DNA from: a virus
IMG/VR virus record: IMGVR_UViG_3300046011_003658
Coordinates: 1-21,716 of that record
Reading direction: 5' to 3' (one strand)
Length of the DNA stretch: 21,716 nt
Below are positions 622-14,083 of this stretch, piece by piece. The position numbers and the translations under genes were made by a program. The notes beneath the pieces were generated by a model. That model made no database searches, was not told where the DNA came from, and saw only the letters and a list, made by a program, of their open reading frames with translations. The stretch's first letter is position 1. Each line of letters begins with the position of its first letter.

Positions 622-1047
622 TTAGGGGATCAAAAACAAGTCGCGCTCGGCGGTGCGGCGGATCGTTAAGCCGCGAACCGCCCGCCCGCCCGCCTTGTTC
701 CAAAGCAAAAACTTTTCCGCCGCGGCGTTGAACTCGCCGCGCTTCGCGAGTCGGCAAACCGACGAAGCCCCGAACGCACCAAGCCCGATGTTATAGGCGA
801 GTGACACGCAAGCGACTAGGCGATTTCCTGAAAGCCCAGGGCAACGCGCCAAGACCCCCGACATAAAATAAATTAGTCGACGGCGCAAAGCGCTATCGGC
901 TTGTTCCTGCGTCCAGACCATGCCAGGCACGACGCCGAGCGTTTCGCCGTGCCCTATCGTCCAAACGCCGACGATGTCTTGATACGCCCGAAGGCGGCAC
1001 CCTTCGAACTTAGCGACGAAGGCGAACGCTTGGTCGAGGGTGTTCAT
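622..1047 (-). CDS. T4-type lysozyme (endolysin, GH24)
   Basis: This 141-residue muramidase would cut the MurNAc-GlcNAc bond of peptidoglycan at the end of infection. The catalytic triad of the T4 lysozyme family is visible with exact family spacing: E15 in KFEGCRLRAY, D24 in YQD, T30 in VWTIGHGE. The C-terminal GLTIRRTAERDLFL segment is also typical of phage GH24 enzymes. No signal peptide or N-terminal signal-anchor is seen, so it should need a holin to reach the wall. The ATG overlaps the upstream holin-candidate stop as ATGA (1047-1044). It is the last gene of the leftward late transcript. No Rz/Rz1 spanin gene follows: the next 150 bases are attachment-site DNA. Confidence 0.93.
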   Translation of the reverse strand: MNTLDQAFAFVAKFEGCRLRAYQDIVGVWTIGHGETLGVVPGMVWTQEQADSALRRRLIYFMSGVLARCPGLSGNRLVACVSLAYNIGLGAFGASSVCRLAKRGEFNAAAEKFLLWNKAGGRAVRGLTIRRTAERDLFLIP

Positions 1048-1520
1048 TTATTTACTTTGTCGAAAACGCGACCGACGAACCAAAACGCCAAGACGCCCGA
1101 GAGCAAAGCGAAATCGTCGGGTGAATAGATTTGCACGAACACCGACGACAACGACGAGCCCGTCGCGTAAAGCATTACCGCGCCGCCCAATTTGTGCAAC
1201 ACATAAAGGGAGAGCAAAACGTAAGTCACGACCGGACGAACGAGGAAATTTAACGCGTCGACGATACGAACACCCGTCTTTTGCATTTGCCCTTGAAGCG
1301 CGGTTTTTTGCGCTTCGAGTAAGGCGATTACCTGGTCGAAATTGCCTTGCACCTCGATTTCGCGCACCTTGTTGTCGCTGCGTAGCTGTTCGAGTTGAAA
1401 TTGCTTGTCGAGCATTTTTAGTTCGTGCGTGTTGTCCTCTTTCTTGTGTAGCAAGTTCAGAATTTCAGGCAACAAACGAAGAAGCCCGCCCCCGAGGGCG
1501 GATAAAATAGAAAGTAGCAT
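1044..1520 (-). CDS. holin candidate with coiled coil (GTA_holin_3TM-like)
   Basis: This 158-residue protein has a hydrophobic N-terminal stretch (2-24), a charged helical coiled coil (about 26-82), and two hydrophobic segments: 93-118 starting at FLVRPVVTYVLLSLYVLHKL, and 137-152 with FALLSGVLAFWFVG. Hydrophobic N-terminus, coiled coil, an RP motif before a membrane segment and a final helix are the pattern of the 3-TM holins described from gene transfer agents and many siphophages. The role would be to permeabilise the inner membrane and release the lysozyme encoded next, with which it overlaps by ATGA. Shine-Dalgarno AAAAGGA precedes the ATG. The long soluble middle part is unlike lambda S. 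I am fairly sure of the membrane topology and less sure of the function. Confidence 0.65.
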   Translation of the reverse strand: MLLSILSALGGGLLRLLPEILNLLHKKEDNTHELKMLDKQFQLEQLRSDNKVREIEVQGNFDQVIALLEAQKTALQGQMQKTGVRIVDALNFLVRPVVTYVLLSLYVLHKLGGAVMLYATGSSLSSVFVQIYSPDDFALLSGVLAFWFVGRVFDKVNK

Positions 1521-1570
1521 TTTGCGTTCCTTTTAGTGTCTTTCTTTTGGATCCAAAGACGGCGAAAGTA

Positions 1571-1813
1571 TCAAGGTTTAAAACCGTGCGCTTTCGCCCA
1601 TTCGAGCAAGACCGAACCCGCCCAGGCAAAAACAACGAGCACGAGCGCCGATAATGTTTTTTCGATGATCGCTTGGCGAAGCTTTACGCTTTGCGCTTCG
1701 CGCTTAATTGCGAGTTTTACCCATTGCATTTCGTCCTCGGACAGCGACGGGGTGTTCGCTCGGAGCGCTTGCGCGATGTCGGCGATAAATTCTTGGCGCT
1801 CTTTTGGTGTCAT
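1571..1813 (-). CDS. small membrane protein, possible second holin or antiholin
   Basis: This 80-residue protein has a soluble, charged, helical N-terminal half (LSEDEMQWVKLAIKREAQ at 24-41) and one C-terminal membrane helix (about 53-71, TLSALVLVVFAWAGSVLLEW). It ends in the basic tail AKAHGFKP. It sits directly upstream of the holin candidate and lysozyme, 50 bases before the next start. Small single-helix proteins next to phage holins are often antiholins or accessory holins, so that is the likely role, but nothing in the sequence proves it. Upstream spacing is 23 bases, with GGGGAT as a weak ribosome site. Confidence 0.6.
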   Translation of the reverse strand: MTPKERQEFIADIAQALRANTPSLSEDEMQWVKLAIKREAQSVKLRQAIIEKTLSALVLVVFAWAGSVLLEWAKAHGFKP

Positions 1814-1836
1814 GTTTAGTTATCCCCGTCGGCGGT

Positions 1837-2157
1837 TTAAGGTGCGATTAGTGCGTCGCGCTCTTGTGCTTTTTGAATATAAAGCGAGAACATTGCCGCA
1901 TAGACTTGCAAGCCCGTCATTGTCGCCCCTGGGATCACCTCGCCCGTTTCGGGGTTGCGCATTTGAATAACGATGTTTGGATCAAATTCGAAATGGATGC
2001 CGGGCAAAGACTCGGCGAACTCTTTGTCGCCAGCGACGACGATAACTTCTTCGCTTAGCCGCACCATTGGCGCGCCGTGTCGCGGGTTGCTAATTAGTAC
2101 CTGGTTGCAACGCTGCCAGCTTTTGCCCGAGACGTCGGTTTGGTTGTAATCTGCCAT
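1837..2157 (-). CDS. conserved phage protein of unknown function (106 aa)
   Basis: The start is supported by an AAAGGA ribosome site a few bases upstream. The product begins MADYNQTDVSGKSWQRC. It contains a central acidic/hydrophobic beta-like part (RLSEEVIVVAGDKEF) and ends in a helix (LQVYAAMFSLYIQKAQERDALI). Similar short proteins are, as I recall, found between tail fibre and lysis genes in other proteobacterial siphophages, with no established function. There is no signal peptide or membrane segment. A structural or fibre-associated role is a guess from position. Confidence 0.75.
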   Translation of the reverse strand: MADYNQTDVSGKSWQRCNQVLISNPRHGAPMVRLSEEVIVVAGDKEFAESLPGIHFEFDPNIVIQMRNPETGEVIPGATMTGLQVYAAMFSLYIQKAQERDALIAP

Positions 2158-2183
2158 GATTTTTTTTCCTTTATATCGTTAAA

Positions 2184-3881
2184 TTAAATCGCGACTTCGG
2201 ACGCATGCACCGCCGCGCTTACATACACGTTTGTCATTGCCGTGGCGCCCATATTAAAAACCAACGCAAGCCCTTGGTTTGTCGTGTCTGCTGTCGCGGT
2301 GAGCGTCCAACCTGTCGGCACCGTGCCGCCTAAACTTGTGACCGTTGGCGTACCAACAAACGCGACGTTTCCGGTATTACCGCGGCGAATTACGCCTTTC
2401 ACTTCCCACCCTGCCGACTCGGTTCCTAAAGTCGCGAGCCGACCCGCCGACACTGTCGCTGTGAAAGTAACCAAACGAGACAAAGGCACGTTAATAATGT
2501 TCGACGCCCCGACCGCGTTCCCGTCCGATGTTAGTGTGTAGTTTGTATTGATTGCCGTAGCACTTGCCGACAAAACGGTGCGAGCGTATTGCGACCAACC
2601 ACTACCCGCGCCCCTTGCGGAATAGGAACCGTGCGCAAATTTACCCGCGAAGTCCGCGAGTGCATAAGACCCGATTGCGAATGCCCGTTGCGCGTTTGCG
2701 GTGTTATTACCAATCGCAACCGATTCCATACCCGTAGCGTTAGAACCCACCCCAATAGCGACGGCGTTTGCCGCCGATGCGCTTTGCCCACCTACATTGA
2801 CCGAACTAAGCCCGCCCGCGGTGCCGTTGCCGATGCTAATCGCGTTTGAATTGCTCGCGGTGCCCGCGCCTATCGCGATAGCGCCAAGAGCCGACGCGGT
2901 CGCGGTGCTGCTTCCGCCGATTGCAATCGAGCCAGACCCCGACGCGACGCCCTGGTTAAGCGCAACGGAGTTTCCGCCGCTGCCCGTCGCGGAGCGGCTT
3001 AATATTTTCCATTTGCCCGACGCCGATGCGGTCGCGCACGTAATCGTCACAGAGGAGCCAGGCGGCACCGCAATCGAACTTTCGCCACCTTGAAATGTAT
3101 CAGTGCCAGCACGAATTACGTTTCGAACAACTGTCGTTTCATTGACGTAGTTGAAAATAAAGCCGACGCCCGCCGTTGCACTCGCAAGAAGCGTAATGTC
3201 GCCAGTACCCGACGTGGTGCGGATCGTTGTCGCGTGATCGCCCGCGACTAAAGTGTAAGCCGCTGTTTTGTCCGAAATTGCTTGTTTTGGGTATGTCGAA
3301 ACGCCCGCGGGGGCACTTAGCGAAACAGTCCAAGCCGCCAACGTGCCCGACCCGTTGATCGTCGTCACGTTGACGACTAGCGCACCCGTGCCACTGTTGT
3401 ACGCGGTGATGTCCCCGTGCATCCAAGTCGTCGGGGTCGCGGTGCTTGCAATCTTGACCGATGCGCCCACCGTTAGCATTTTTCCGGTTTCGACGGTCAG
3501 CGACTTAGACCCAAGACCGACCGCGACGCTAGTCGTGCTTGTTGCGCTAGTGCCTGGTGCGCTTACTGCTGTTAGCGCGCTCGCGGCGGCGTTCGTTTCA
3601 CTTATTAACGCGTTATCGGCGCTCGCGGCGGCGTTCGTTTCACTTATTAACGCGTTATCGGCGCTGGTTGCCGCTAGTGCAACTTGATCCGCTGCACTCG
3701 TAGCGCTCGCGGCGGCGTCGACCGCGTTGCCGTACACGTTCGCGGCAAGCCCGACAAGCTCGGTGCGGAAAGTCGGCAACGCGTTCGACCAATTATATGC
3801 AAGGGTGTTAAACGTTGCGCGGTTCGACGGGTCGGGTGCCGCTGGTAGCGTTGCGACGCTTGGGGGTGTTGTAACTGCCAT
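2184..3881 (-). CDS. tail fibre with YadA-like head repeats
   Basis: This 565-residue protein is modular. Residues 1-50 look like a tail-attachment segment (PDPSNRATFNTLAYNWSNAL). Residues 50-107 are an Ala/Ser/Asn-rich helical region with a perfect 14-residue duplication (SADNALISETNAAA). Residues 110-195 form a beta module seen in other phage fibres (TSVAVGLGSKSLTVETGK, then WMHGDITAYNSGTG). Residues 200-297 form another beta module. Residues 303-420 hold five or more repeats of the type AIGxxSxA (for example SIAIGGSSTATA, AIAIGAGTASNS, AVAIGVGSNATG, SVAIGNNTANAQ), the left-handed beta-roll motif of YadA and other trimeric adhesin heads. Residues 425-565 form a beta-rich tip. It is probably a trimer that contacts the host surface. 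AAAGGA lies before the ATG. Fibre identity is firm; receptor binding is inferred. Confidence 0.85.
   Translation of the reverse strand: MAVTTPPSVATLPAAPDPSNRATFNTLAYNWSNALPTFRTELVGLAANVYGNAVDAAASATSAADQVALAATSADNALISETNAAASADNALISETNAAASALTAVSAPGTSATSTTSVAVGLGSKSLTVETGKMLTVGASVKIASTATPTTWMHGDITAYNSGTGALVVNVTTINGSGTLAAWTVSLSAPAGVSTYPKQAISDKTAAYTLVAGDHATTIRTTSGTGDITLLASATAGVGFIFNYVNETTVVRNVIRAGTDTFQGGESSIAVPPGSSVTITCATASASGKWKILSRSATGSGGNSVALNQGVASGSGSIAIGGSSTATASALGAIAIGAGTASNSNAISIGNGTAGGLSSVNVGGQSASAANAVAIGVGSNATGMESVAIGNNTANAQRAFAIGSYALADFAGKFAHGSYSARGAGSGWSQYARTVLSASATAINTNYTLTSDGNAVGASNIINVPLSRLVTFTATVSAGRLATLGTESAGWEVKGVIRRGNTGNVAFVGTPTVTSLGGTVPTGWTLTATADTTNQGLALVFNMGATAMTNVYVSAAVHASEVAI
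3577..3660 (-). repeat. perfect 42-bp tandem duplication in the fibre gene
   Basis: Two identical 42-base units, 3577-3618 and 3619-3660, encode SADNALISETNAAA twice in frame. The first 15 bases of the unit recur at 3703-3717. Identity at every base, silent sites included, points to a recent duplication that lengthened the helical shaft by 14 residues (two heptads). Confidence 0.9.
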
Positions 3882-3894
3882 TTTTAAATTTCCT

Positions 3895-4818
3895 TTAAAT
3901 GAAGCCGCGAACGTTTAAATTTATGCTCGCATGATTAAAACCGTCGTACCCGACCGAAGCCGAGCAAATCCCAAACACGTTAAGCCCCGCGAAACCCGCG
4001 GCGTCGGACGCGATAAAACTTGCGGGAACATCGAGAACCGATTGCAATTTGAAAAGCGCTTGGTCGGCTTGGTCGCGGGGAATCGCGATAACTGCGCGCA
4101 TGTTCGTTCCGTTGTTTCGGCGGACGATTTCCGTCGTGCCGTCGGTGTTCGTTTTTATCGAGCTGTTCGAATAAGGTTCGGCACTCGTACCAGGTAACGC
4201 ACCGCCCCAAGTGCCTTCGCCCAAAAGCGAGGTGTAATCGCCGACGTTAATCATGCCGACACCCACGTCGGCACCGCCGCCCGCGGTGATTGTTAGTGTT
4301 AGCTCGGCGGTCGGGCGAATCGGCAAATCTTTGAGAATCACGCGGTCGATCACCTTGCGCGGCGAGAATAGATATTCGTACCAACCGACGGGCGGTTCGG
4401 TCAAATCGAAAGTGTTCGAATAAATCGTCGTGCCGCCTGGTGCGTCTTTGAGTGTCACCGTCAAAGTGTCACCCGTTAGCCCGTAAAGCGCGGCGGAATT
4501 GAAAAAGCCAGGCGACAAAACGAAGGACAGCGAGCCCGTCGCTTTCGCTGCGGTCGATTTGTAATAATCGAACGGCGCGAAACGCTGCGTCGGGGCTTTG
4601 TCTTTCCAATAGAGCGGATCGTTCTCGGGTAACGCGACGCGCCCCGTGTGTACTTGCACACACTCATAGACGCGGTGCGTCGTGGTGCGAATGCGCAAGT
4701 CACCCAAAGCATACGAACCCGCCGACACCCAAGCCGTTTCGCCCGCTGCTGGTTCGGCGATGGTCGTGCCCGCCCCAATCATCGCGCTTGTGATTTCAAT
4801 CGGTAAAATAATATTCAT
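3895..4818 (-). CDS. tail protein downstream of tape measure, likely tail tip or fibre base (307 aa)
   Basis: The ATG lies 7 bases after the tape-measure stop, and the next gene (fibre) starts 13 bases beyond its end, so all three are probably co-translated. An N-terminal part resembles a small carbohydrate-binding (CBM5/12-like) fold, with aromatic and Gly/Asp positions W30, Y36, G39-D40, Y51, C53, H57 and W71, as in WVSAGSYALGD and THRVYECVQVH. Residues about 75-220 are beta-rich with an FAPFDYYKST segment. The C-terminal half ends in INLNVRGFI. I recall proteins with this pattern in tail regions of other proteobacterial phages, without a proven role. No lambda J, L, K or I homologue is recognisable. 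The tail location is firm; sugar binding is inferred. Confidence 0.7.
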   Translation of the reverse strand: MNIILPIEITSAMIGAGTTIAEPAAGETAWVSAGSYALGDLRIRTTTHRVYECVQVHTGRVALPENDPLYWKDKAPTQRFAPFDYYKSTAAKATGSLSFVLSPGFFNSAALYGLTGDTLTVTLKDAPGGTTIYSNTFDLTEPPVGWYEYLFSPRKVIDRVILKDLPIRPTAELTLTITAGGGADVGVGMINVGDYTSLLGEGTWGGALPGTSAEPYSNSSIKTNTDGTTEIVRRNNGTNMRAVIAIPRDQADQALFKLQSVLDVPASFIASDAAGFAGLNVFGICSASVGYDGFNHASINLNVRGFI

Positions 4819-4824
4819 TCGTTT

Positions 4825-7800
4825 TTAGTCCTCGACTGTTACGCGCATTGGTGCGTCGGAGTTGCCGTTAACCGCGTCGCCGATGCGGCGGGTGTTTTGG
4901 TTGCCAATCGCGCCGATTTCTTGAAGGCGTTGAACTTCCGCGGTGAGCGATTCGACGAGCGATTCGAGTCGTGCGTTTTGCAAATTCAAGGTCGCCGTCA
5001 CGGGCGCGTCGAAAGATGTTGTCGTCGCTGGTGTTGCGGTGAGATTTGGCGACGCTGCGGGTGTTCGACCTTGGATTGCGGCGGCGAGGTTGTTTAATGC
5101 GGTTTGCACCGACAAAACGCTATTGTTCACGCCGTTAATCGCGTCGACTTGTTGCTTCGCAAGTGCTTCTTGCGCGTCGAGTGTTGCTAGTTGCTGGTTT
5201 GCGACCGCGAGCGCTTGTTCGGCGGCGTTTAGTTGCGGCACCGCGATTTCCTGCAATTGGCTTAACTTGCCCGCCATAACTAGCGCGGCGCGGTCGGCTT
5301 CGAATTGCGTCGTGTACTCTGTCGACGCGATGCCGTTGCGCACCGCTGCAATCGCGCTCGCGAGTTGGTTTTGTTCGGGTAGATAGCCCGTCGCTTTTGC
5401 GTTGGCGAGGGCGTTGTCTAAGAACGCATTGCCCGCAATCGCTTGCAAAGCTTTGGTGCTGTCGACCGAGTTGTAAATCGAATCGATTTGATCGCCCAAC
5501 ACCCCGAACACGCCTTTAATGCTGTTCACCGATTCTTGCGCGGCTTGCTTTATTACCGAAACGCGGGTGCGTTCTGTGTCAATCGCTTTTTGCACCGCGC
5601 CGAGCGCTTCTTGTGTTGCTTGCTTCGCGTCTTCGGCGGCTTGTTGCTGGTTGCGGATCGCGACGATTTGGTCGAAGATCGAACGATTCGATTCGTCGAG
5701 TGCGGCGCGTTGACGGGCAAGCGCTTGCACCGCCGAGTCGGTCAAGCCGTTAAGTTGGTCTTGGAGCCCCGCGCGTTCCTGTGCCACCTGGGCGGCTTTT
5801 TGCGCCGCTGCGGCTTCGGCTTGGCGTTGCGCGTTGATCGCTTGTATTTGATCGAAAATGCCTTGATTCGATGCGTCGAGCGCTTCACGTTGGCGGGTGA
5901 GGGCTTGCGCCGCGGTGTCGGTGAGCGCGTTAAGTTGCTCTTGCAATCCGGTGCGCTCTTGTGCGATTTGCGATGTGCGTTGCGCCGCCGCTTCCTCGGC
6001 TTGGCGCTGTGCGGTCAATGCCTGGATTTGGTCGAAAATGCCGCGGTTCGATTCGTCAAGTGCTGCGCGTTGGCGTTCTAGTGCTTGCGTCGACGAATCC
6101 GTCAAGCCGTTAAGTCTGTCTTGCAACCCCGTGCGTTCTTGCGCAACTTGGGCGGCTTTCTGCGCGGCGGCTTCCTCGGCTTGTTTCTGCGCACCGAGCG
6201 CTTGGATTTGGTCGAAAATGCCTTGATTCGACGCGTCCAGTGCTGCGCGTTGACGTGCGAGCGCGTCGACTGCGGTGTCGGTGAGTGCGTTAAGTTGATC
6301 TTGCAAAGCCGTGCGCTCTTGCGCGATTTGGGTCGCCTTTTGTGCCGCTTGTTGCGCTGCTGCGTCCTCGGCTTGTTTCTGTGCCGATAGCGCTTGGATT
6401 TGGTCGAATATCCCACGGTTAGAAGCGTCGAGCGCGTCGCGTTGACGTGCGAGCGCTTGCGCTGCGGTGTCAGTTAATCCGTTAAGTTGGTCTTGTAAGG
6501 TGCCGCGTTCTTGTGCCACCTGTGCCGCTTTTTGTGCTGCTGCTTCCTCGGCTTGGCGCTGTGCGCTTAGCGCTTGGATTTGGTCGAAGATACCGCGATT
6601 CGATGCGTCCAGTGCTTCACGTTGACGCGCAAGCGCTTCGGTCGCGGTGCCCGTCATGCCGTTAAGTTGGTCTTGTAAAGACAAACGTTCTTGCGCGACC
6701 TGGGCGGCTTTTTGCGTCGCGGCTTCCTCGGCTTGGCGCTGCGCGGTGAGCGCTTGCACTTGGTCGAATAGCCCTTGGTTAGAAGCGTCGAGCGCTGCGC
6801 GTTGGCGTTCTAGCGCTTGCGCTGCGGTGTCGGTCAGTCCGTTGATTCTGTCTTGCAACGCCGCCCGTTCCTGGGCGATTTGCGCCGCCCGTTGCGCGGC
6901 TTCCTCTTGCGCTTGTTTCTGCGCGGCGAGTGCTTGCTCTTGGGCTTGCTTTTGAGCCGATAGCGCTTGGATTTGGTCGAAAATCCCGCGGTTCGATGCG
7001 TCGAGCGCTTCGCGTTGACGGGCGAGCGCTTGCGCGGAATCACCTGTCAATGCGGCGAGTTGGTCTTGCAAATCGACGCGCTCTTGCGCCACCTGTGCCG
7101 CTCTTTGTGCCGCGGCTTCCTCGGCTTGGCGTTGCGCGCTTAGTGCTTGGATTTGATCGAAAATGCCTTGATTCGATGCGTCTAGGGCTTCGCGTTGACG
7201 TGCGAGCGCTTGGGTTGCGGTGTCGGTGAGTGCGTTAAGTTGGTCTTGCAATGCGCCGCGCTCTTGCGACACCTGGGCGGCGCGCTGTGCTGCGGCTTCC
7301 TCGGCGGCTTTCTGTGCCGATAGCGCTTGCACTTGGTCGAATATCCCGCGATTAGAAGCGTCGAGCGCTTCGCGTTGGCGCGATAACGCTTGCGCCGCGG
7401 TGTCGGTGAGCGCGTTAAGTTGGTCTTGAAGGGTGCCGCGTTCCTGGGCGATTTGCGCCGCCTTTTGTGTCGCGGCTTCCTCGGCTTGGCGTTGCGCGGT
7501 CAATGCCTGGATTTGGTCGAATATCGCGACGTTAGAAGCGTCGAGCGCTGCGCGTTGACGGTTCAGGGATTGCGCCGCGGTGTCGGTGATCGCGTTAAGT
7601 TGGTCTTGCAACGCGCCGCGTTCCTGGGCTACTTGCGCGGCTTTCTGCGTTGCGGCTTCCTGGGCTTGCTTTTGAGCCGATAGCGCTTGGATTTGGTCGA
7701 AAATACCTTGATTCGATGCGTCTAGGGCTTCGCGTTGACGTGCGAGCGCTTGCGCCGCGCTGTCGGTCAATGCGTTAAGTTGGTCTTGAAGTGCGATTCG

Positions 7801-10800
7801 CTCTTGGGCGATTTGGGTCGCCTTTTGCGTTGCCGCCGCGGCTTGTTGCGCTGCCGCTTCCTCGGCTTGTTTCTGCGCGACGAGGGCTTGCACTTGGTCG
7901 AAGATACCGCGGTTCGATGCGTCCAGGGCTTCGCGTTGGCGGTTCAGGGCTTGCGCTGCGGTGTCGGTGAGCGCGTTAAGTTGGTCTTGTAAGCTCGCGC
8001 GCTCTTGTGCCACCTGGGCGGATTTCTGCGCCGCTGCTTCCTCGGCTTGTTTCTGCGCACCGAGCGCTTGAATTTGGTCGAAAATCCCGCGGTTCGATTC
8101 GTCCAGGGCTTCGCGTTGGCGGTTCAGAGCTTGCGCTGCGGTGTCGGTCAATGTGTTTAGTTGCGCTTGGAGTGCTGCGCGTTCTTGTGACACCTGGGCA
8201 ATACGTTGCGCCGCGGCTTCCTCGGCGGCTTTTTGTGCCGATAGCGCTTGGATTTGGTCGAACAATGCCACGTTAGAAGCGTCGAGCGCCGCGCGTTGAC
8301 GTTCGAGTGATTGCGCGGCGGTGTCGGTGAGTGCGTTAAGTTGCTCTTGCAAGCCCGAACGTTGTTGCGCCACCTGGGCGGATTTTTGCGCCGCTGCTTC
8401 CTCGGCTTGTTTCTGTGCGCCGAGCGCTTGGATTTGGTCGAAGATACCGCGATTCGATTCGTCTAGCGCTTCGCGTTGGCGGTTTAGGGCTTGCGCGGCG
8501 GTGTCGGTCAATCCGTTAAGTTGGTCTTGCAATCCGGTGCGCTCTTGCGCGATTTGTGCCGCCCGTTGCGCTGCGGCTTCCTCGGCGGCTTTCTGCGCGG
8601 TCAATGCCTGGATTTGGTCGAAAATCGCGACGTTCGTTTGTTCGAGCGCGAAGCGTTGCGCTTGCAATCGCTGTTCGCTCGTCATCGTCAATTCGTTTAG
8701 TTGCGATGTCAAAGCCAAACGCTCGTCGCTCGCCGCTTTTTGAATTGCCGCGATTTGTTGTTCGGCGTCTTGCTTTTCTTTTAGTGCTTGGATTTGGTCG
8801 AAAATCCCGCGGTTCGATTCGTCAAGCGCTGCGCGTTGACGTTCGAGGGATTGCGCGGCGGTTTCGGTAAGCGCGTTAAATTGATCTTGCAAAGCCGTGC
8901 GCTCTTGCGCCACCTGTGCCGCTCTTTGCGCTGCCGCTTCCTCGGCTTGGCGTTGCATGGTGAGCGCTTGGATTTGGTCGAAAATGCCGCGATTCGATGC
9001 GTCCAGGGCTTCGCGTTGACGTGCAAGCGCTTGCGCACCTGTGTCGGTTAATGCGTTTAATTGTTCTTCGAGGTTTGCGCGTTCGCGAGCGACGTCCGCC
9101 GCTTGCTTGATCGTTGTTCCTGTTTCGACGAGAACACCGTTTAGGCTCGCGGTGTAGTCTGTCACCGCTTTAAATTGCGGCGCGATTGCGATAAGTTCCG
9201 CATACATTTTCGCACCGGACTCGGTCGACAAATCGAGCGATTGCACCAAGTTTTTAAACTCGGGCACGGTGTCGACGGTGGATTTGCCAAGTCGTGCCAT
9301 TGTTTCGGCGACGATGTCGACGGCGGGCTTCATCTTCTCGGCTTCCGACAAGAAGTTTTCAGCGAAGAACGACGCGCCCGATAAGAACTTATCAAAGCCG
9401 CCCGACAATTCGATTAAGCGTTGTGCATCACCCGCACCGACGACGCTAGTCGATAGTTTTTCGAGACCGATTGCGGAAATTGTCTGATTAACCCCGACAA
9501 GCCCCGTCGCTAGGCGAGCCATTGCCGCCGCCGATGTCTCGCCTTCTTTTCGTAGCGATGCGATATTCGGGATTAAATCCGCCGCGATTAAATCGGCAAT
9601 TCCCCCAAACACCCCCGCGAGGGCTTTCTCGGTTTCTTCTTGCGTTTTGCCGAGTGTTAAATTTATCGAGTCGTTACGCTTTGCGATTTCGTCCGCGTTC
9701 AATCCGAGGGATTTTGCGAAGTCCGCGGCGGCGGTTTTAACCGCGTCGTAGCTGCCGTTTAATAGCTTGAGAAGTTCCTTATCGCTGGTTAAGCTTGCGG
9801 TGTCGGTGTACGACTTGCCGTCGCGGGTCGTTGCGACGGAGTCTTTCAAGCCGTACGACCACACGTCGGAGCGGTCGGAGCGGAACAAACCGCCCTGCTG
9901 CGTCCACGGTTGATTGCGCATTAGGTTGTCGGTGCCGAGGGTGCCCGTTACGGTTTGCCCGCCGAACTCTTTTTCTTTCATGCCGAAAAGCCGCGGGGCG
10001 ATACCGAAGATCGCCGCGCCAGCGTCCGCCGACACCCCGTTAAGCCGATACTCGCCGTTGATCGCCTTCATACCCTGGAAAGCCGCAATCGCCGCGGCAA
10101 CGTAGGGCATTGCGCCCGCAATCGACGCACCTGTCGAACCCGCGCCCGTGAGTGCCACGGTGCCCGAAGATGCCGTGCCTAACGTGCTGCCCGTCAGCGC
10201 CGCCGCTTCCGCGGTTAATGCGCTCGCTGTCGTTGCGGAACTTAGACCGAGCGATTGCCCGAGCGAACTCATTGCAAACGACGTAAAAGTGCCCGACGAT
10301 GCCGCGCCCGCCGCCGCGAAACCTTCCCATAACGACTTGCCCGTCGAGATTGCGTTAAATGCTTGCCCTAGCGGGTTCGTCGCCGCGCTCGCGTTGCCCG
10401 CGATGCCACCAATAACGCCAGTCAAAACACCTTGAATTGCAAGTTTTAAAACGGTCGTTTTGAATAGATTTTTGATGCCGCCCCAAAAGCTTTCGAAAAA
10501 GCCTTTGCCCGCTTCGAAACCGCGATAAAGCGAGTCGCTTAAGCCGTTGTAAATATCGGTATAAAAATTAGTCCAGGTCTCTTGTTGCGCTTTGATGCCC
10601 GCGAGGTTCTTTGCGTCCGCGGCGATTTGTTCCGCTTTTAGCTTCGCTTCATTTGCACCCGCGCTAGAGATTTTGTTCAATGCGCGTTCGTTTTCGATTG
10701 CTGCGAGTTGCTTTTGCAATTCGAGTTCGATTTTGTATTGCGCAAGCGCCGTCGCGCGTTCGGTCGACGACTGCCCAAGCAAAGACAATTCGAGCTTTGC

Positions 10801-12570
10801 AAGTTCCGCGCTTTCCTGGTATCCACGCGCCCAATCGTCGAGCGACGATTTCAAGCGGTTTTCGGCTTGTAATTGGTCGGTAAAGCCCGTAATTATGTCT
10901 TTTGTGTTTTTCTTCACCGCGTCGGCGTAAGCCGTGTGTGATTTGGTGAGTTCTTCGTTTATCCGCTTTTCAGCGTCACCCATGGCTTTATATTCGGCTT
11001 TGCGAACTTGCCAGGCGAGCGATTGATCCTCGGCGGCTTTCAGTGCCTTTTCCACGCCGCTCTTGCGAATGATCGCGATTTGTTCTTCGATTTCTTTTTC
11101 GCCCACCCCCGCGGCGATACCCGCGGCGCGCACCTTGGCGATTTCGCGACGGAGTTTTTCCTCTTTGCTTAAGTTCTTTTCGACCACCCCGCCCCACTCG
11201 ATACCCGCTTGAACTTGCTTGTTCGCGGCTTCCTGGGCTTTCGCTTCCTCTTTTCTCGCGTCGACTTTCGAGCGCAAAATGCGGATCATTCGCTCGTTTT
11301 GGTCGAGCTCGACTTGATAACGGGCGGAGAGGGTCGTGTCGCCGTTCGCTTCCGCGTCTTTCTTAAGCTTCTCGAATTGCTCGCGTTGCTTGAATAGCTT
11401 TGCGATTTTTTGGTCGGCGGTCGGATCGTCGAAAACTCGCTTTGCTGCGTCGAGCGCGTCCGATGTCGCTGTTTTGATGCGAATCCATCCGCGTTCCCAA
11501 TCGGTGAGCGTTTCGCTTACTTTGCCCGCTTGGTTCACCAACGCGTTCGCGTAAGTCTCTTGCGCCAGGCGAGCGGCGTCCGCCTTCTTGCCTTGGTCTT
11601 CTAGTGCTTTGATTTGCTCGTAAATTTCGAGCGTTAAGAATCGATATTTTTCGTTGAGCGCTTCGATTGATTTTGTCGGGCTTTTGCCTAAGTCTGAAAA
11701 CGCCTTGACGGTGTCCTCGACCGCGAGCCCGAGAAGTTGTTGCCCTTTGATCGCTGCCCGCGCTGCATCGTCTAACACCGACATGGAGACCTTGCCCGAC
11801 GATACCAAGCCGTTTAACGCTTCCGCGGCGAGTGATTGCGAGCCGATGCCCACGTCGCTAATTCGCTGCGCGGCGGTCATAAGTTGGTCGGTTGTCGTGC
11901 CCGCTGCGTTGCCGCTTAAGATAATCGACTTCGCGAATGCTTGCGATTGTTCGTTCGATTGCGAATAGGCGTACCCAAGCGCGGCGACTGCTGCACCCGC
12001 CGCGGTAATCGGGTTGATTAAGCCGACGAGATAAGAACCCATTGCGCGGGCGGCGTTGCCTGCCCCGCCGAACATATCTTTTAACTGTCCGCCTTGTTGC
12101 AAAAATACAGTGAGGGGTTTTTGCCCGCCCTGAATGCTCGTCACAATGTCGGTAAATTGCGCGGGAACGTTGCGCATCGCGGCGGCGGTTTGTGCTGCTG
12201 ATATGCCGACGCTTTTTTGCGCACCTTCGACGGCTTTCAATTGTTCCAAGTACGGGCGGAGTACGTCGGCATTGATGCCGCGCTGTTGTGCCAATACTTC
12301 GAAATATTTTGCGCTCGACTTCGAACCCGATTCCATCGCCGCCGTCGTGCGTTGAATGGAGCCGATCATGTTGTTTGTTGCGCGGTCGATCTTCGTCGCC
12401 GCTGCGGCGCCCGCTTCGCCGACGTTGCCGAGGCTGTCGGCGGTTTCTTTATTCGCTCTTTTGGCTACTTGCGATAAGTTGTCGATTGTTCGCGCTATAG
12501 GTGCGACGCCTTCTTGCACCTTCGAGCCGTCGAGACCAACCTCAATCGTTGCGCTTAACTTATCGGACAT
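4825..12570 (-). CDS. tail length tape measure protein (lambda gpH type, 2581 aa)
   Basis: It spans the tail lumen during assembly and sets tail length. Residues 1-330 match the lambda-type N-terminal tape-measure domain (RNVPAQFTDIVTSIQGGQKP at 133-152, then QGGQLKDMFGG). A hydrophobic helix sits near 183-203. Helical segments run through 310-660. Residues about 669-725 look like the lambda gpH C-terminal domain (YNGLSDSLYRGFEAGKGFFE, then a hydrophobic stretch). A Gly/Ala/Ser-rich hydrophobic area (730-835) and a helical block (840-1162) follow. Residues 1163-2332 are 19 tandem units of about 60 residues (see repeat entry), and 2333-2581 a helical C-terminus ending in PMRVTVED. Lambda gpH has 853 residues, so this protein is about three times as long, and the repeats alone exceed all of gpH. 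Start: ATG with AAGG a few bases upstream, just after a terminator-like hairpin. Confidence 0.96.
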   Translation of the reverse strand: MSDKLSATIEVGLDGSKVQEGVAPIARTIDNLSQVAKRANKETADSLGNVGEAGAAAATKIDRATNNMIGSIQRTTAAMESGSKSSAKYFEVLAQQRGINADVLRPYLEQLKAVEGAQKSVGISAAQTAAAMRNVPAQFTDIVTSIQGGQKPLTVFLQQGGQLKDMFGGAGNAARAMGSYLVGLINPITAAGAAVAALGYAYSQSNEQSQAFAKSIILSGNAAGTTTDQLMTAAQRISDVGIGSQSLAAEALNGLVSSGKVSMSVLDDAARAAIKGQQLLGLAVEDTVKAFSDLGKSPTKSIEALNEKYRFLTLEIYEQIKALEDQGKKADAARLAQETYANALVNQAGKVSETLTDWERGWIRIKTATSDALDAAKRVFDDPTADQKIAKLFKQREQFEKLKKDAEANGDTTLSARYQVELDQNERMIRILRSKVDARKEEAKAQEAANKQVQAGIEWGGVVEKNLSKEEKLRREIAKVRAAGIAAGVGEKEIEEQIAIIRKSGVEKALKAAEDQSLAWQVRKAEYKAMGDAEKRINEELTKSHTAYADAVKKNTKDIITGFTDQLQAENRLKSSLDDWARGYQESAELAKLELSLLGQSSTERATALAQYKIELELQKQLAAIENERALNKISSAGANEAKLKAEQIAADAKNLAGIKAQQETWTNFYTDIYNGLSDSLYRGFEAGKGFFESFWGGIKNLFKTTVLKLAIQGVLTGVIGGIAGNASAATNPLGQAFNAISTGKSLWEGFAAAGAASSGTFTSFAMSSLGQSLGLSSATTASALTAEAAALTGSTLGTASSGTVALTGAGSTGASIAGAMPYVAAAIAAFQGMKAINGEYRLNGVSADAGAAIFGIAPRLFGMKEKEFGGQTVTGTLGTDNLMRNQPWTQQGGLFRSDRSDVWSYGLKDSVATTRDGKSYTDTASLTSDKELLKLLNGSYDAVKTAAADFAKSLGLNADEIAKRNDSINLTLGKTQEETEKALAGVFGGIADLIAADLIPNIASLRKEGETSAAAMARLATGLVGVNQTISAIGLEKLSTSVVGAGDAQRLIELSGGFDKFLSGASFFAENFLSEAEKMKPAVDIVAETMARLGKSTVDTVPEFKNLVQSLDLSTESGAKMYAELIAIAPQFKAVTDYTASLNGVLVETGTTIKQAADVARERANLEEQLNALTDTGAQALARQREALDASNRGIFDQIQALTMQRQAEEAAAQRAAQVAQERTALQDQFNALTETAAQSLERQRAALDESNRGIFDQIQALKEKQDAEQQIAAIQKAASDERLALTSQLNELTMTSEQRLQAQRFALEQTNVAIFDQIQALTAQKAAEEAAAQRAAQIAQERTGLQDQLNGLTDTAAQALNRQREALDESNRGIFDQIQALGAQKQAEEAAAQKSAQVAQQRSGLQEQLNALTDTAAQSLERQRAALDASNVALFDQIQALSAQKAAEEAAAQRIAQVSQERAALQAQLNTLTDTAAQALNRQREALDESNRGIFDQIQALGAQKQAEEAAAQKSAQVAQERASLQDQLNALTDTAAQALNRQREALDASNRGIFDQVQALVAQKQAEEAAAQQAAAATQKATQIAQERIALQDQLNALTDSAAQALARQREALDASNQGIFDQIQALSAQKQAQEAATQKAAQVAQERGALQDQLNAITDTAAQSLNRQRAALDASNVAIFDQIQALTAQRQAEEAATQKAAQIAQERGTLQDQLNALTDTAAQALSRQREALDASNRGIFDQVQALSAQKAAEEAAAQRAAQVSQERGALQDQLNALTDTATQALARQREALDASNQGIFDQIQALSAQRQAEEAAAQRAAQVAQERVDLQDQLAALTGDSAQALARQREALDASNRGIFDQIQALSAQKQAQEQALAAQKQAQEEAAQRAAQIAQERAALQDRINGLTDTAAQALERQRAALDASNQGLFDQVQALTAQRQAEEAATQKAAQVAQERLSLQDQLNGMTGTATEALARQREALDASNRGIFDQIQALSAQRQAEEAAAQKAAQVAQERGTLQDQLNGLTDTAAQALARQRDALDASNRGIFDQIQALSAQKQAEDAAAQQAAQKATQIAQERTALQDQLNALTDTAVDALARQRAALDASNQGIFDQIQALGAQKQAEEAAAQKAAQVAQERTGLQDRLNGLTDSSTQALERQRAALDESNRGIFDQIQALTAQRQAEEAAAQRTSQIAQERTGLQEQLNALTDTAAQALTRQREALDASNQGIFDQIQAINAQRQAEAAAAQKAAQVAQERAGLQDQLNGLTDSAVQALARQRAALDESNRSIFDQIVAIRNQQQAAEDAKQATQEALGAVQKAIDTERTRVSVIKQAAQESVNSIKGVFGVLGDQIDSIYNSVDSTKALQAIAGNAFLDNALANAKATGYLPEQNQLASAIAAVRNGIASTEYTTQFEADRAALVMAGKLSQLQEIAVPQLNAAEQALAVANQQLATLDAQEALAKQQVDAINGVNNSVLSVQTALNNLAAAIQGRTPAASPNLTATPATTTSFDAPVTATLNLQNARLESLVESLTAEVQRLQEIGAIGNQNTRRIGDAVNGNSDAPMRVTVED
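5575..9084 (-). repeat. 19 tandem ~60-residue repeats in the tape measure
   Basis: The 3510 bases encode 1170 residues (tape-measure residues 1163-2332) in 19 units. The consensus runs ERxxLQDQLNALTDTAAQAL, then xRQREALDASNRGIFDQIQAL, then xAQKQAEEAAAQKAAQVAQ. Fifteen units are exactly 60 residues. Unit 7 (8004-7804) has 67, unit 12 (7083-6871) 71, unit 15 (6510-6319) 64, and the last, unit 19 (5778-5575), 68. FDQ is present in all 19. Units 2, 3 and 19 are the most divergent. Related LDxSNRxxxDQI-type segments are known in other lambda-type tape measures; 19 in a row is far more than I recall. The DNA repeats are imperfect, with many silent differences. Confidence 0.95.
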
Positions 12571-12584
12571 GGTTAACCTTGAAT

Positions 12585-12613
12585 AAAGAAAAAGCCCGCT
12601 AGTCGGCGGGCTT
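12585..12613 (-). terminator. terminator-like hairpin before the tape measure gene
   Basis: AAGCCCGC (12592-12599) pairs with GCGGGCTT (12606-12613) over a six-base loop. On the minus strand a U-tract follows (12593-12589, then U-rich). The stop codon of the upstream frameshift product (12599-12601) lies in the stem-loop, and the tape measure ATG is about 20 bases after the stem. It should lower or gate transcription into the very long tape measure gene. Confidence 0.75.
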
Positions 12614-12916
12614 ATTTAAAAAATGAAGTGCTGCGCGTTCTAGTGTCGAAACATCGCTTTCGAGTTCGTTGCGCTCGTCCGCGTCTAGCTTCATGCGGTC
12701 GAGCCTTGCGAATAACACGTTGTAATCGAGTCCGATGTAACCTTGAAACGCTGTCCGCCATTGGGTAGAGAGCGAACAAAAAACCGAAAACGCTGTTTCG
12801 TTGTCGGGAAAAACTTCTAAAATCTCACTCGCGAAATCTTCACGCGTTAACCCCGCTTCGGCGAGTTCTGCGTCGGTGGGGTCTTTCGTGTAGAACTTTT
12901 CCGCGAGTGCTTCTAG
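12599..12916 (-). CDS. tail assembly chaperone, T-like extension made by -1 frameshift
   Basis: This frame is -1 relative to the upstream chaperone gene and is entered at the slippery heptamer 12922-12916. It adds 105 residues (LEALAEKFYTKDPTD onward, ending ALHFLNKPAD), giving a fusion of about 244 residues. The segment with PDNETAFSVFCSLSTQWR followed by GLDYNVLFARLD resembles the DUF1799 family, found at this place in other siphophages. By analogy with lambda gpGT, the minor fusion product would recruit the tail tube protein to the tape measure while the short form coats the tape measure. I see no ATG near the start of this segment, which argues against independent translation. An upstream ATG at 13039 exists in the same frame, but its product would read through the wrong frame of the first chaperone gene. 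Confidence 0.8.
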   Translation of the reverse strand, partial: LEALAEKFYTKDPTDAELAEAGLTREDFASEILEVFPDNETAFSVFCSLSTQWRTAFQGYIGLDYNVLFARLDRMKLDADERNELESDVSTLERAALHFLNKPAD

Positions 12917-13332
12917 TTTTTTATGCGTTCCTCGGCGACCGCGTTCGCGTAGGTGCTTGAAATTGCTTTCAGCGAGCCTGGGAACTCGTTTTCCAAACGC
13001 ATTAAGTTTTCTTTGCTTAAGTCGTCTTCGATGTCCCAACCCTTCGCGATTTTCAAAACGTGCTCGGCGCTGTTCTTGCCTGATTTCTCGTAGAGTTCAG
13101 ACCAAAACGAATCAGACATCGATTCGATAGAACTGTTATCGTCGCCGCGGCTTGCTTCGAAATCGGCTTTCGCGCGCTTGATGCCTTCGTCGGCGAGTTC
13201 TGCAAACTCTTTTTTGGTGCGGTATTGGTAAGTCACTTCGAGGTCGAGGGCTTTGTCGTCGACCGTGTGCAAAGTGATTGTGCGTTTGAAGTCTTTCGGT
13301 TGTGCGCCGAATTTAAATTTTTGATTTGCCAT
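12913..13332 (-). CDS. tail assembly chaperone, G-like short form
   Basis: This 139-residue protein starts MANQKFKFGAQPKDFKRTIT. It lies between the tail tube and tape measure genes, the fixed place of lambda gene G and its analogues. The product has a beta-rich N-terminal half (ITLHTVDDKALDLEVTYQYR) and a charged helical C-terminal half ending AEERIKN. I chose ATG 13332 rather than the upstream GTG at 13401, because the extra 23 residues overlap the hairpin at 13373-13406 and look non-coding. The stop TAG (12915-12913) comes directly after the slippery heptamer, so most ribosomes end here and a minority shift into the T-like frame. A terminator-like hairpin lies about 40 bases upstream of the start. 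Confidence 0.85.
   Translation of the reverse strand: MANQKFKFGAQPKDFKRTITLHTVDDKALDLEVTYQYRTKKEFAELADEGIKRAKADFEASRGDDNSSIESMSDSFWSELYEKSGKNSAEHVLKIAKGWDIEDDLSKENLMRLENEFPGSLKAISSTYANAVAEERIKN
12916..12922 (-). promoter_or_regulatory. -1 ribosomal frameshift slippery heptamer A AAA AAC
   Basis: On the minus strand the 0-frame codons are ATA AAA AAC TAG. The heptamer A AAA AAC fits X XXY YYZ and is followed at once by the 0-frame stop, where a pausing ribosome could slip. After slipping, the next codon is CTA (Leu), which opens the 105-residue T-like frame. I did not find an obvious strong stimulatory stem just downstream. Confidence 0.85.
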
Positions 13333-13357
13333 GGTATTTATCTTTCGCGAGATAGTT

Positions 13358-13406
13358 AAAAAAGCCTGTGCCCGTCGGTGCTTCCCGCGAAAGGAAGACA
13401 CCGACG
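13358..13406 (-). terminator. hairpin between tail tube and chaperone genes
   Basis: CGTCGGTG (13373-13380) plus CTTCC (13381-13385) pairs with GGAAG (13393-13397) and CACCGACG (13399-13406), with a single-base bulge. This gives a 13-bp stem. A U6 run follows on the minus strand (13363-13358), but nine bases separate it from the stem. So it may be a weak terminator or a 3'-end-protecting hairpin rather than a standard terminator. Confidence 0.6.
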
Positions 13407-13438: not shown

Positions 13439-14083
13439 TTAAGACGCGTAACGGTTCGGACGACCTTGCAACGCGATACCGGCTTTTACCGACATCAAAT
13501 TGCCTTTTGTCATCGACGGCGTTTCGTCGAATGCAAAAATGCCGTTGTACAAAATCACGCCGCCCGCGGGCATTGACGCGCGCAAAGCCGTCACCGCGCG
13601 AGATTGCGCGGTCGTTTTCAATGCTTGATAGCCCGCCAAAGTCGGATCGTCGGCAATTTCCAACGCCAGGGATTGCGCGCTAGTTGTTGTCGGGATTTGG
13701 CTATCAAAATTTTGTTCCAAGAACGAGAAAGTTTGATACTGCGGATCGCCACCGGAACTTGTGCAACCGATGATTTGAGTGATTTGCGTCCAAGTGTTGA
13801 TTTTGCGGATTGTTCCGGTGCCCGAACCTGTCGGGAACGAAACGACGTTCGTCGTGTCGAGACCTTCGGCGACGATGGTTGTGCCCGTCACTGATTTGGC
13901 GCGGAACACACGATTATTCGCGCTAGACCAACCGCTAACGAACTCGAAATAATCACCGTTCGCGAGGGTGTTCGTTACTGTTAAAACCGCTTCGGCGGCG
14001 TTCGACGCTGCGGTCACTGTGAGATTGCCAGCGTATGCGGTCGCGATTGCGAGCACAACGCCATTCGGTAATGAAACTGCCAT
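13439..14083 (-). CDS. major tail tube protein
   Basis: This 214-residue protein lies between the tail completion gene and the chaperone genes, the usual place of the tail tube gene. It starts MAVSLPNGVVLAIATAYAG. It is rich in Ala, Thr, Ser and Val, with predicted beta strands (NAAEAVLTVTNTLANGDYFE, GTIRKINTWTQI). A helical segment around LALEIADDPTLAGYQALK is followed by beta strands ending at ALQGRPNRYAS. Size and composition fit the lambda gpV N-domain type tube proteins, which stack as hexameric rings around the tape measure. A clear AAAGGA ribosome site precedes the ATG. Tandem terminator-like hairpins lie upstream and another hairpin downstream, as expected for a product needed in large amounts. 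Confidence 0.85.
   Translation of the reverse strand: MAVSLPNGVVLAIATAYAGNLTVTAASNAAEAVLTVTNTLANGDYFEFVSGWSSANNRVFRAKSVTGTTIVAEGLDTTNVVSFPTGSGTGTIRKINTWTQITQIIGCTSSGGDPQYQTFSFLEQNFDSQIPTTTSAQSLALEIADDPTLAGYQALKTTAQSRAVTALRASMPAGGVILYNGIFAFDETPSMTKGNLMSVKAGIALQGRPNRYAS

Follow-up and report, generated by a model that had tools for sequence, protein, structure and literature searches.

Among the closest described systems are the tape measure proteins (TMPs) of the lactococcal phages TP901-1 and p2, which are helical rulers with tandem repeats. According to the part of the published work available, tail length follows TMP length, and removing the TP901-1 repeats shortens the tail, the lengths seen after deletion ranging between 118 and 65 nm, with 0.145 nm of tail for each residue (PMC5099701). 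Repeats of 11 and 18 residues are given for approximately 5% of TMP records, and one of 40 residues for p2, again in the available portions of the papers (PMC3271669, PMC5099701). The accessible text of Belcaid et al. 2011 describes families of 11-residue TMP repeats in Clostridium and Staphylococcus phages and reconstructs their duplication history (PMC3271669). For HFTV1, the available sections present residues 2-316 of the TMP as helical, forming a coiled coil aligned with 11 tube rings (PMC12494034), which by our own arithmetic is about 29 residues per ring.

The window, by which is meant the whole stretch of DNA analysed, is a virus record of 21,716 bases with a siphovirus-type structural module on its minus strand. 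The module comprises genes for the large terminase, portal, head maturation protease, major head protein, connector, tube protein, chaperones, TMP, a 307-aa protein, a 565-aa protein and a lysozyme; the connector genes were assigned by match to phage VarioGold and the tip by position. The features that matter here are listed below.

13439..14083, minus strand: major tail (tube) protein (PHROG 584, E 2e-66)
12599..13401, minus strand: tail assembly chaperone pair, ORFs 12913-13401 and 12599-13039 (PHROG 569/680/17368; -1 frameshift site)
4825..12570, minus strand: tape measure protein gene, 2581 aa (Pfam and PHROG matches)
11608..12219, minus strand, coordinates by arithmetic: TMP_2 domain, TMP residues 118-321 (Pfam PF06791, E 3.5e-68)
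9091..10083, minus strand: conserved middle domain, TMP residues 830-1160 (matched by phmmer in 59 of 82 TMPs, including that of the window)
5605..9090, minus strand: 19-unit tandem array, TMP residues 1161-2322, about 60 residues per unit (FDQ spacing, TRF)
4828..5604, minus strand: conserved TMP C-terminal segment, residues 2323-2581 (identity to Aval, L049 and L047; PHROG 25966)
3895..4818, minus strand: 307-aa protein, likely tail tip (putative function), directly 3' of the TMP gene (PHROG 6278, a family of unknown function)
2184..3881, minus strand: 565-aa probable tail fibre (YadA_head repeat, E 5e-6; N-terminal matches in L049 and L087)

The gene order, with tube protein, chaperones with a -1 frameshift site, TMP and putative tip in succession, fits a siphophage TMP of the lambda gpH / TMP_2 type. 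The preliminary description of gene 4825-12570 as a tape measure is upheld by the TMP_2 match and by PHROG, where six of the seven families matched are named tail length tape measure. The window record gave no hit to Pfam PF10145. The three PHROG families matched by ORFs 12913-13401 and 12599-13039 also carry a tape measure label in PHROGs. These two ORFs are probably chaperones, judging from their position, their overlap and the fact that their counterparts in Aval and VarioGold are annotated as chaperones. A slippery heptamer, A AAA AAC, is present at 12916-12922 on the minus strand, just before the stop of ORF 12913-13401, and the predicted -1 shift would lead into ORF 12599-13039 as a frameshift of the lambda G/GT type.

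On the other side of the TMP gene, a Pfam search with the 307-aa protein gave no match. A PHROG search with the 565-aa probable fibre likewise gave none; its gene contains a perfect 42-bp tandem repeat at 3577-3665 (2.1 copies, 100%), corresponding to 14 residues or two heptads, and this is a very recent duplication. The ORFs at 1044-4818 have the appearance of a small tail tip. Within the TMP, the middle domain is modelled by AlphaFold as a helix-and-strand domain (mean pLDDT 82). It has no fold match in the PDB at E <= 0.001 and seven in BFVD at the same threshold, these being predicted phage proteins, with a single protein named tape measure accounting for two of the seven.

The motif FDQ occurs once in each of the 19 units (19 out of 19), in agreement with the invariant core described earlier, and its 18 spacings are 60 residues in 15 cases and 67, 71 and 64 in the others. 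TRF independently detects the array, with periods of 180 and 360 bp and scores up to 2149. The tandem array itself therefore stands, while its limits, first given as residues 1163-2332, move to 1161-2322, and the statement that the TMP is built mostly from these units is generous, since the 19 copies account for 1162 of 2581 residues (45%). Over 50-residue cores the units have a mean pairwise identity of 74% in protein and 73% in DNA, falling to 55% at codon position 3, and the median dN/dS is about 0.18 (NG86, 169 of 171 unit pairs). To judge from these values, the unit sequence has diverged under purifying selection. There is no proline in the 1162 residues of the array and no W, and F makes up 1.8% of them.

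The TMP is very probably the tail ruler of a siphovirus-like phage, with the 19 units as a spacer segment of that ruler. Each unit would be about 60 residues of alpha-helix in mixed heptad and hendecad phase, and with each copy the rod that the polymerising tail tube surrounds would gain close to 9 nm, the array contributing approximately 170 nm of a predicted 330-410 nm tail. The array would lie inside the tube and set its length one for one; its position C-terminal to the folded domain, presumably on the tip-proximal side, makes this placing less certain. In distant relatives the module is found, usually as one copy, after the middle domain and before the C-terminus, and it is taken to be old. 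It would have been multiplied in the window lineage, most likely by unequal recombination between units, and the copies would then have diverged under purifying selection.

The value of 0.15 nm of tail per tape residue on which the first estimate was based agrees with the figure in the available part of the TP901-1 work (PMC5099701). Related phages give a broader range, 0.128-0.179 nm per residue. ValSw3-3, with a tail of 168 nm and a TMP of 1062 residues, gives 0.158; its TMP has the middle domain (24% identity over 254 columns, E 2e-11) and no detected unit. DC31 has a tail of 203 nm and a TMP of 1584 residues with the middle domain and one detected unit, giving 0.128. VarioGold, with a tail of about 170 nm and a TMP of 948 residues with neither middle domain nor detected unit, gives 0.179. 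The tail lengths of Me-ZS1 and Lsp-JY19 were not found in the literature searched. At 0.128 to 0.158 nm per residue the tail of the window phage is predicted to be 331-408 nm, or about 460 nm at the VarioGold value, and the predicted share of the array is 168-174 nm at 0.145-0.15 nm per residue. The window phage probably has an unusually long tail, with a length that can shift by whole modules.

The best-scoring named phage in the TMP search is the Acidovorax phage Aval, called a myovirus in the available part of its own paper, where no tail length was found. In its annotated stretch (L001) no feature carries the name sheath, and the tube proteins of Aval and the window share 51% identity. The Aval TMP aligns with window residues 7-189 at the N-terminus, 573-1136 in the middle and 2321-2499 at the C-terminus. 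Between the middle and C-terminal alignments there are 138 residues in Aval versus 1184 in the window; two degenerate units can be recognised by eye in this stretch, and the unit models detect none. The C-terminal segment is 39% identical to residues 1441-1633 of the Aval TMP and 55-56% identical to those of L049 and L047. In L049, which from its identifier is probably an isolate genome, one unit is followed by the C-terminus (55% identity) and then by a product 62.5% identical to the 307-aa putative tip protein. The match to the PHROG 25966 profile breaks off at position 1243, after the first 18 residues of unit 1, and restarts at the C-terminus at position 1246. This continuity across the array site in Aval, L049 and PHROG 25966 indicates that the array is the expansion of a module at one fixed place.

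A different arrangement is seen in L010 (8510-12458), where the middle region of the TMP is 64% identical to that of the window and has no phmmer match to the window's first 400 residues. This suggests a mosaic ruler with a putatively exchanged N-terminal half. The missing half of the L010 array was sought via the C-terminus and not found. Searches of named phages with the window array, the L128 units and the L111 units gave no match. DC31, with its one detected unit, was also missed, so the BLAST low-complexity filter may explain the lack of named-phage matches. Among genomes of the order that includes Undibacterium (Burkholderiales), 2 of 399 gave a unit match at E <= 1e-5. The search used a 240-position model resembling the window units, which has little power for lone divergent copies and found none in three of four bacterial genomes. 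The scan of genome contigs gave 6 relatives.

To compare copy number, TMP-like proteins were taken from an IMG/VR middle-domain scan (best 80 of 98 relatives) and a unit scan (best 80 of 115, as 78 loci), with Aval, the genome contig loci and L103/L104, for a total of 154 non-redundant proteins of which 113 are complete. The tally of units in related phages, proposed at the outset as a check, shows copy number varying from 0 to 19 in these complete TMPs from best-scoring relatives: 50 have no detected unit, 40 have one, 10 have two, 7 have three, 3 have four, and there is a single protein each with five, eight and nineteen, the last being that of the window. These counts are descriptive and are not frequencies, the sample having been found by pattern, half of it via the unit itself, and degenerate units such as those of Aval being missed. 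Incomplete TMPs add 9 hits in L114 (seven in tandem and two elsewhere), 6 in L126, 5 in L132 and 4 in L010.

Total TMP length tracks array span only through the window. For the 63 complete unit-bearing TMPs the correlation is 0.18 by Spearman (P 0.15) and 0.38 by Pearson (P 0.002), and when the window is left out these become 0.13 (P 0.30) and 0.11 (P 0.41). The correlation is weak because the rest of the protein varies too, the non-array length having an SD of 216 residues over a set of 53 complete unit-bearing TMPs.

A tree of unit cores, built on 50 residues per unit and with modest support, pairs unit 3 of the window with unit 3 of L010 (0.93) and clusters the other three L010 units (0.96). 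This suggests that the common ancestor of the two may have had at least three units, followed by separate expansion or homogenisation. A more recent change is found between L126, with 6 units, and L128, with 8. Their TMP genes align over 3114 bases with no mismatch and a single clean 402-bp gap, which is two 67-residue units, and the next 5577 bases are 99.98% identical; the start of the L126 TMP gene is off its contig. The 8-unit form is base-identical in four contigs (L128-L131). The longest exact repeat in that array is 104 bp, so this may be a natural copy-number pair or an assembly collapse of L126. With that proviso, the difference of exactly two units supports the suggestion that copy number changes in whole units. 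In L114, TMP residues 2027-2430 hold seven tandem units, the last six near-identical at 60-residue spacing; there is an exact 206-bp repeat in the array, and the contig stops just after it. On this pattern the L114 run is a recent amplification.

Copy number may drift as units recombine, at little cost or gain in fitness, in which case the tail-length steps would be real and not a selected dial; this is given a chance only a little short of even. The scatter of unit counts from 0 to 19 is in keeping with it, as are the near identity of L126 and L128 over their otherwise shared sequence and the recent amplification in L114. The purifying selection on the units speaks against drift, though it constrains sequence and not number, as does the identity of the 19-copy array in four records: the same 7746-bp gene, with no differences, is present in three more IMG/VR contigs of about 38.4 kb (3300046007, -09 and -10). 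These four records have close sample numbers and may share one project or population, so that they may not be biologically independent. It is suggested more tentatively that tail length in this lineage is an evolvable dial, in which phages that are otherwise identical gain and lose a helix-phase-locked module by recombination and virions in one population differ by steps of approximately 9-10 nm, the 19-unit phage being the extreme.

Units 3-6 are modelled by AlphaFold, from a 5-row alignment, as one helix of 238 residues (mean pLDDT 90). Structure models of repetitive helical sequence tend toward straight helices, and the four-unit model taken alone would be weak evidence. A second model, of the middle domain with unit 1 (21 rows), has a long helix after the domain, broken at residues 1176-1177 and 1189-1190, with both breaks in the conserved LTDT and LDxSN motifs. 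The structure prediction of several units that had been called for is thus divided, a straight helix in the first model and a kinked unit 1 in the second. From these breaks the units might kink, and the reading that they lie within the ruler kinked or folded back, each adding clearly less than 9 nm, has to be weighed. It is unlikely, in view of the 238-residue single helix and of the helix phase kept both by insertions between units, of 7, 11 and 4 residues in the window and 11 in L010, and by the spacings across lineages. Independently of the models, the array shows a hydrophobic period of 3.53, and values of 3.53-3.54 hold for residues 1-760, the array and the C-terminus. The TMP is predicted to be mostly alpha-helical and coiled-coil-like, the middle domain having strands as well.

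The spacing test drew on the 79 anchor-bearing proteins among the 154, with 87 of 93 spacings retained and six of more than 85 residues dropped. Across lineages ten anchor-to-anchor spacings occur, namely 42, 49, 59, 60, 63, 64, 67, 71, 74 and 78. They cluster in helix phase, with R 0.80 (P 0.0004) for 3.6 residues per turn and R 0.66 (P 0.009) for 3.5, the P values serving as a guide only, as the range of 40-85 and the anchor pattern were picked after viewing the data. Nine of the ten can be written as 7a + 11b with b from 0 to 2, compared with 20 of the 46 possible values.

The idea that a unit corresponds to about two tail-tube rings fared less well. The spacings hold helix phase but show no clustering at ring repeats of 26 to 29 residues (P about 0.7, again a guide only), and a two-ring lock per unit was rejected. 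At about 29 residues per ring our own arithmetic gives 2.1 rings for a unit of 60 residues, 1.7 for one of 49 and 2.7 for one of 78; on these figures the two-ring match looks coincidental and tied to the spacing of 60 alone. This suggests that the constraint on the evolution of the ruler may be helix phase rather than a match to the tube rings.

It is improbable, more so than kinking, that the array lies outside the tube and contributes to the tail tip or to a central fibre, the phage lacking the usual tip genes; part of the C-terminal half may still have a role in the tip. The five ORFs between the TMP gene and the lysozyme gene (1044-4818) do have no Pfam or PHROG match to M, L, NlpC or J tip genes, unlike VarioGold, where all four are present after the TMP and the head and tube proteins are related to those of the window, and the array is C-terminal to the folded middle domain. 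However, Aval keeps the C-terminus and the tip gene with 138 residues replacing the array, and L049 does so with one unit, which speaks for a spacer. The whole protein also seems to count toward length, as the ValSw3-3 TMP, with the middle domain present, gives 0.158 nm per residue, and the array shares its helical period with residues 1-760.

The length of the 19-unit array is hardly conceivable as an assembly artefact, even with the array-bearing L010, L114 and L132 ending within or just after their arrays, because its units differ by approximately 27% at the DNA level, its longest exact DNA repeat is 47 bp, where a common short-read length is 150 bases, and three other contigs carry the base-identical gene.

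The putative spacer segment of the ruler can be set against the known proteins at its own site. The Aval TMP (gp34, 1850 aa) shares the order of an N-terminal TMP_2-type region, the middle domain and the C-terminal segment, together with a homologous next gene, and differs in having 138 residues in place of the array. The TMP of the Limnohabitans phage DC31 (1584 aa) shares the middle domain and has one unit versus 19. PHROG 25966 (TMP, 1651 positions) covers the N-terminus, the end of the middle domain and the C-terminus of the window protein, and has no array. To our knowledge, how tail length changes in nature is poorly known. This family provides a natural series, in which one module at a single site is present in 0 to 19 copies, plus a near-isogenic pair two copies apart, and not much engineering would be needed to check the 0.15 nm per residue rule with these.

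The window TMP is like those of TP901-1 and p2 in being a helical ruler with tandem units, with copy number varying among the relatives met here (0 to 19 units). It differs in the unit: in the lactococcal proteins W or F marks repeats 11 and 18 residues long (40 noted for p2), while the window has units of about 60 residues with FDQ once per unit, and no W or F every 11 or 18 residues, W being absent and FDQ occurring once per 60-71 residues. The families of Belcaid et al. 2011 are similar in showing natural unit duplication in TMPs and different in their 11-residue units, and the available part of that paper has no sign of the module of about 60 residues (PMC3271669). No description of this module was found in the literature searched, judged mostly by title or abstract opening. 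It is this module, as far as that search extends, and the comparative copy-number results that are new. Repeat-bearing rulers are already known, and the window is an extreme member of a known ruler class.
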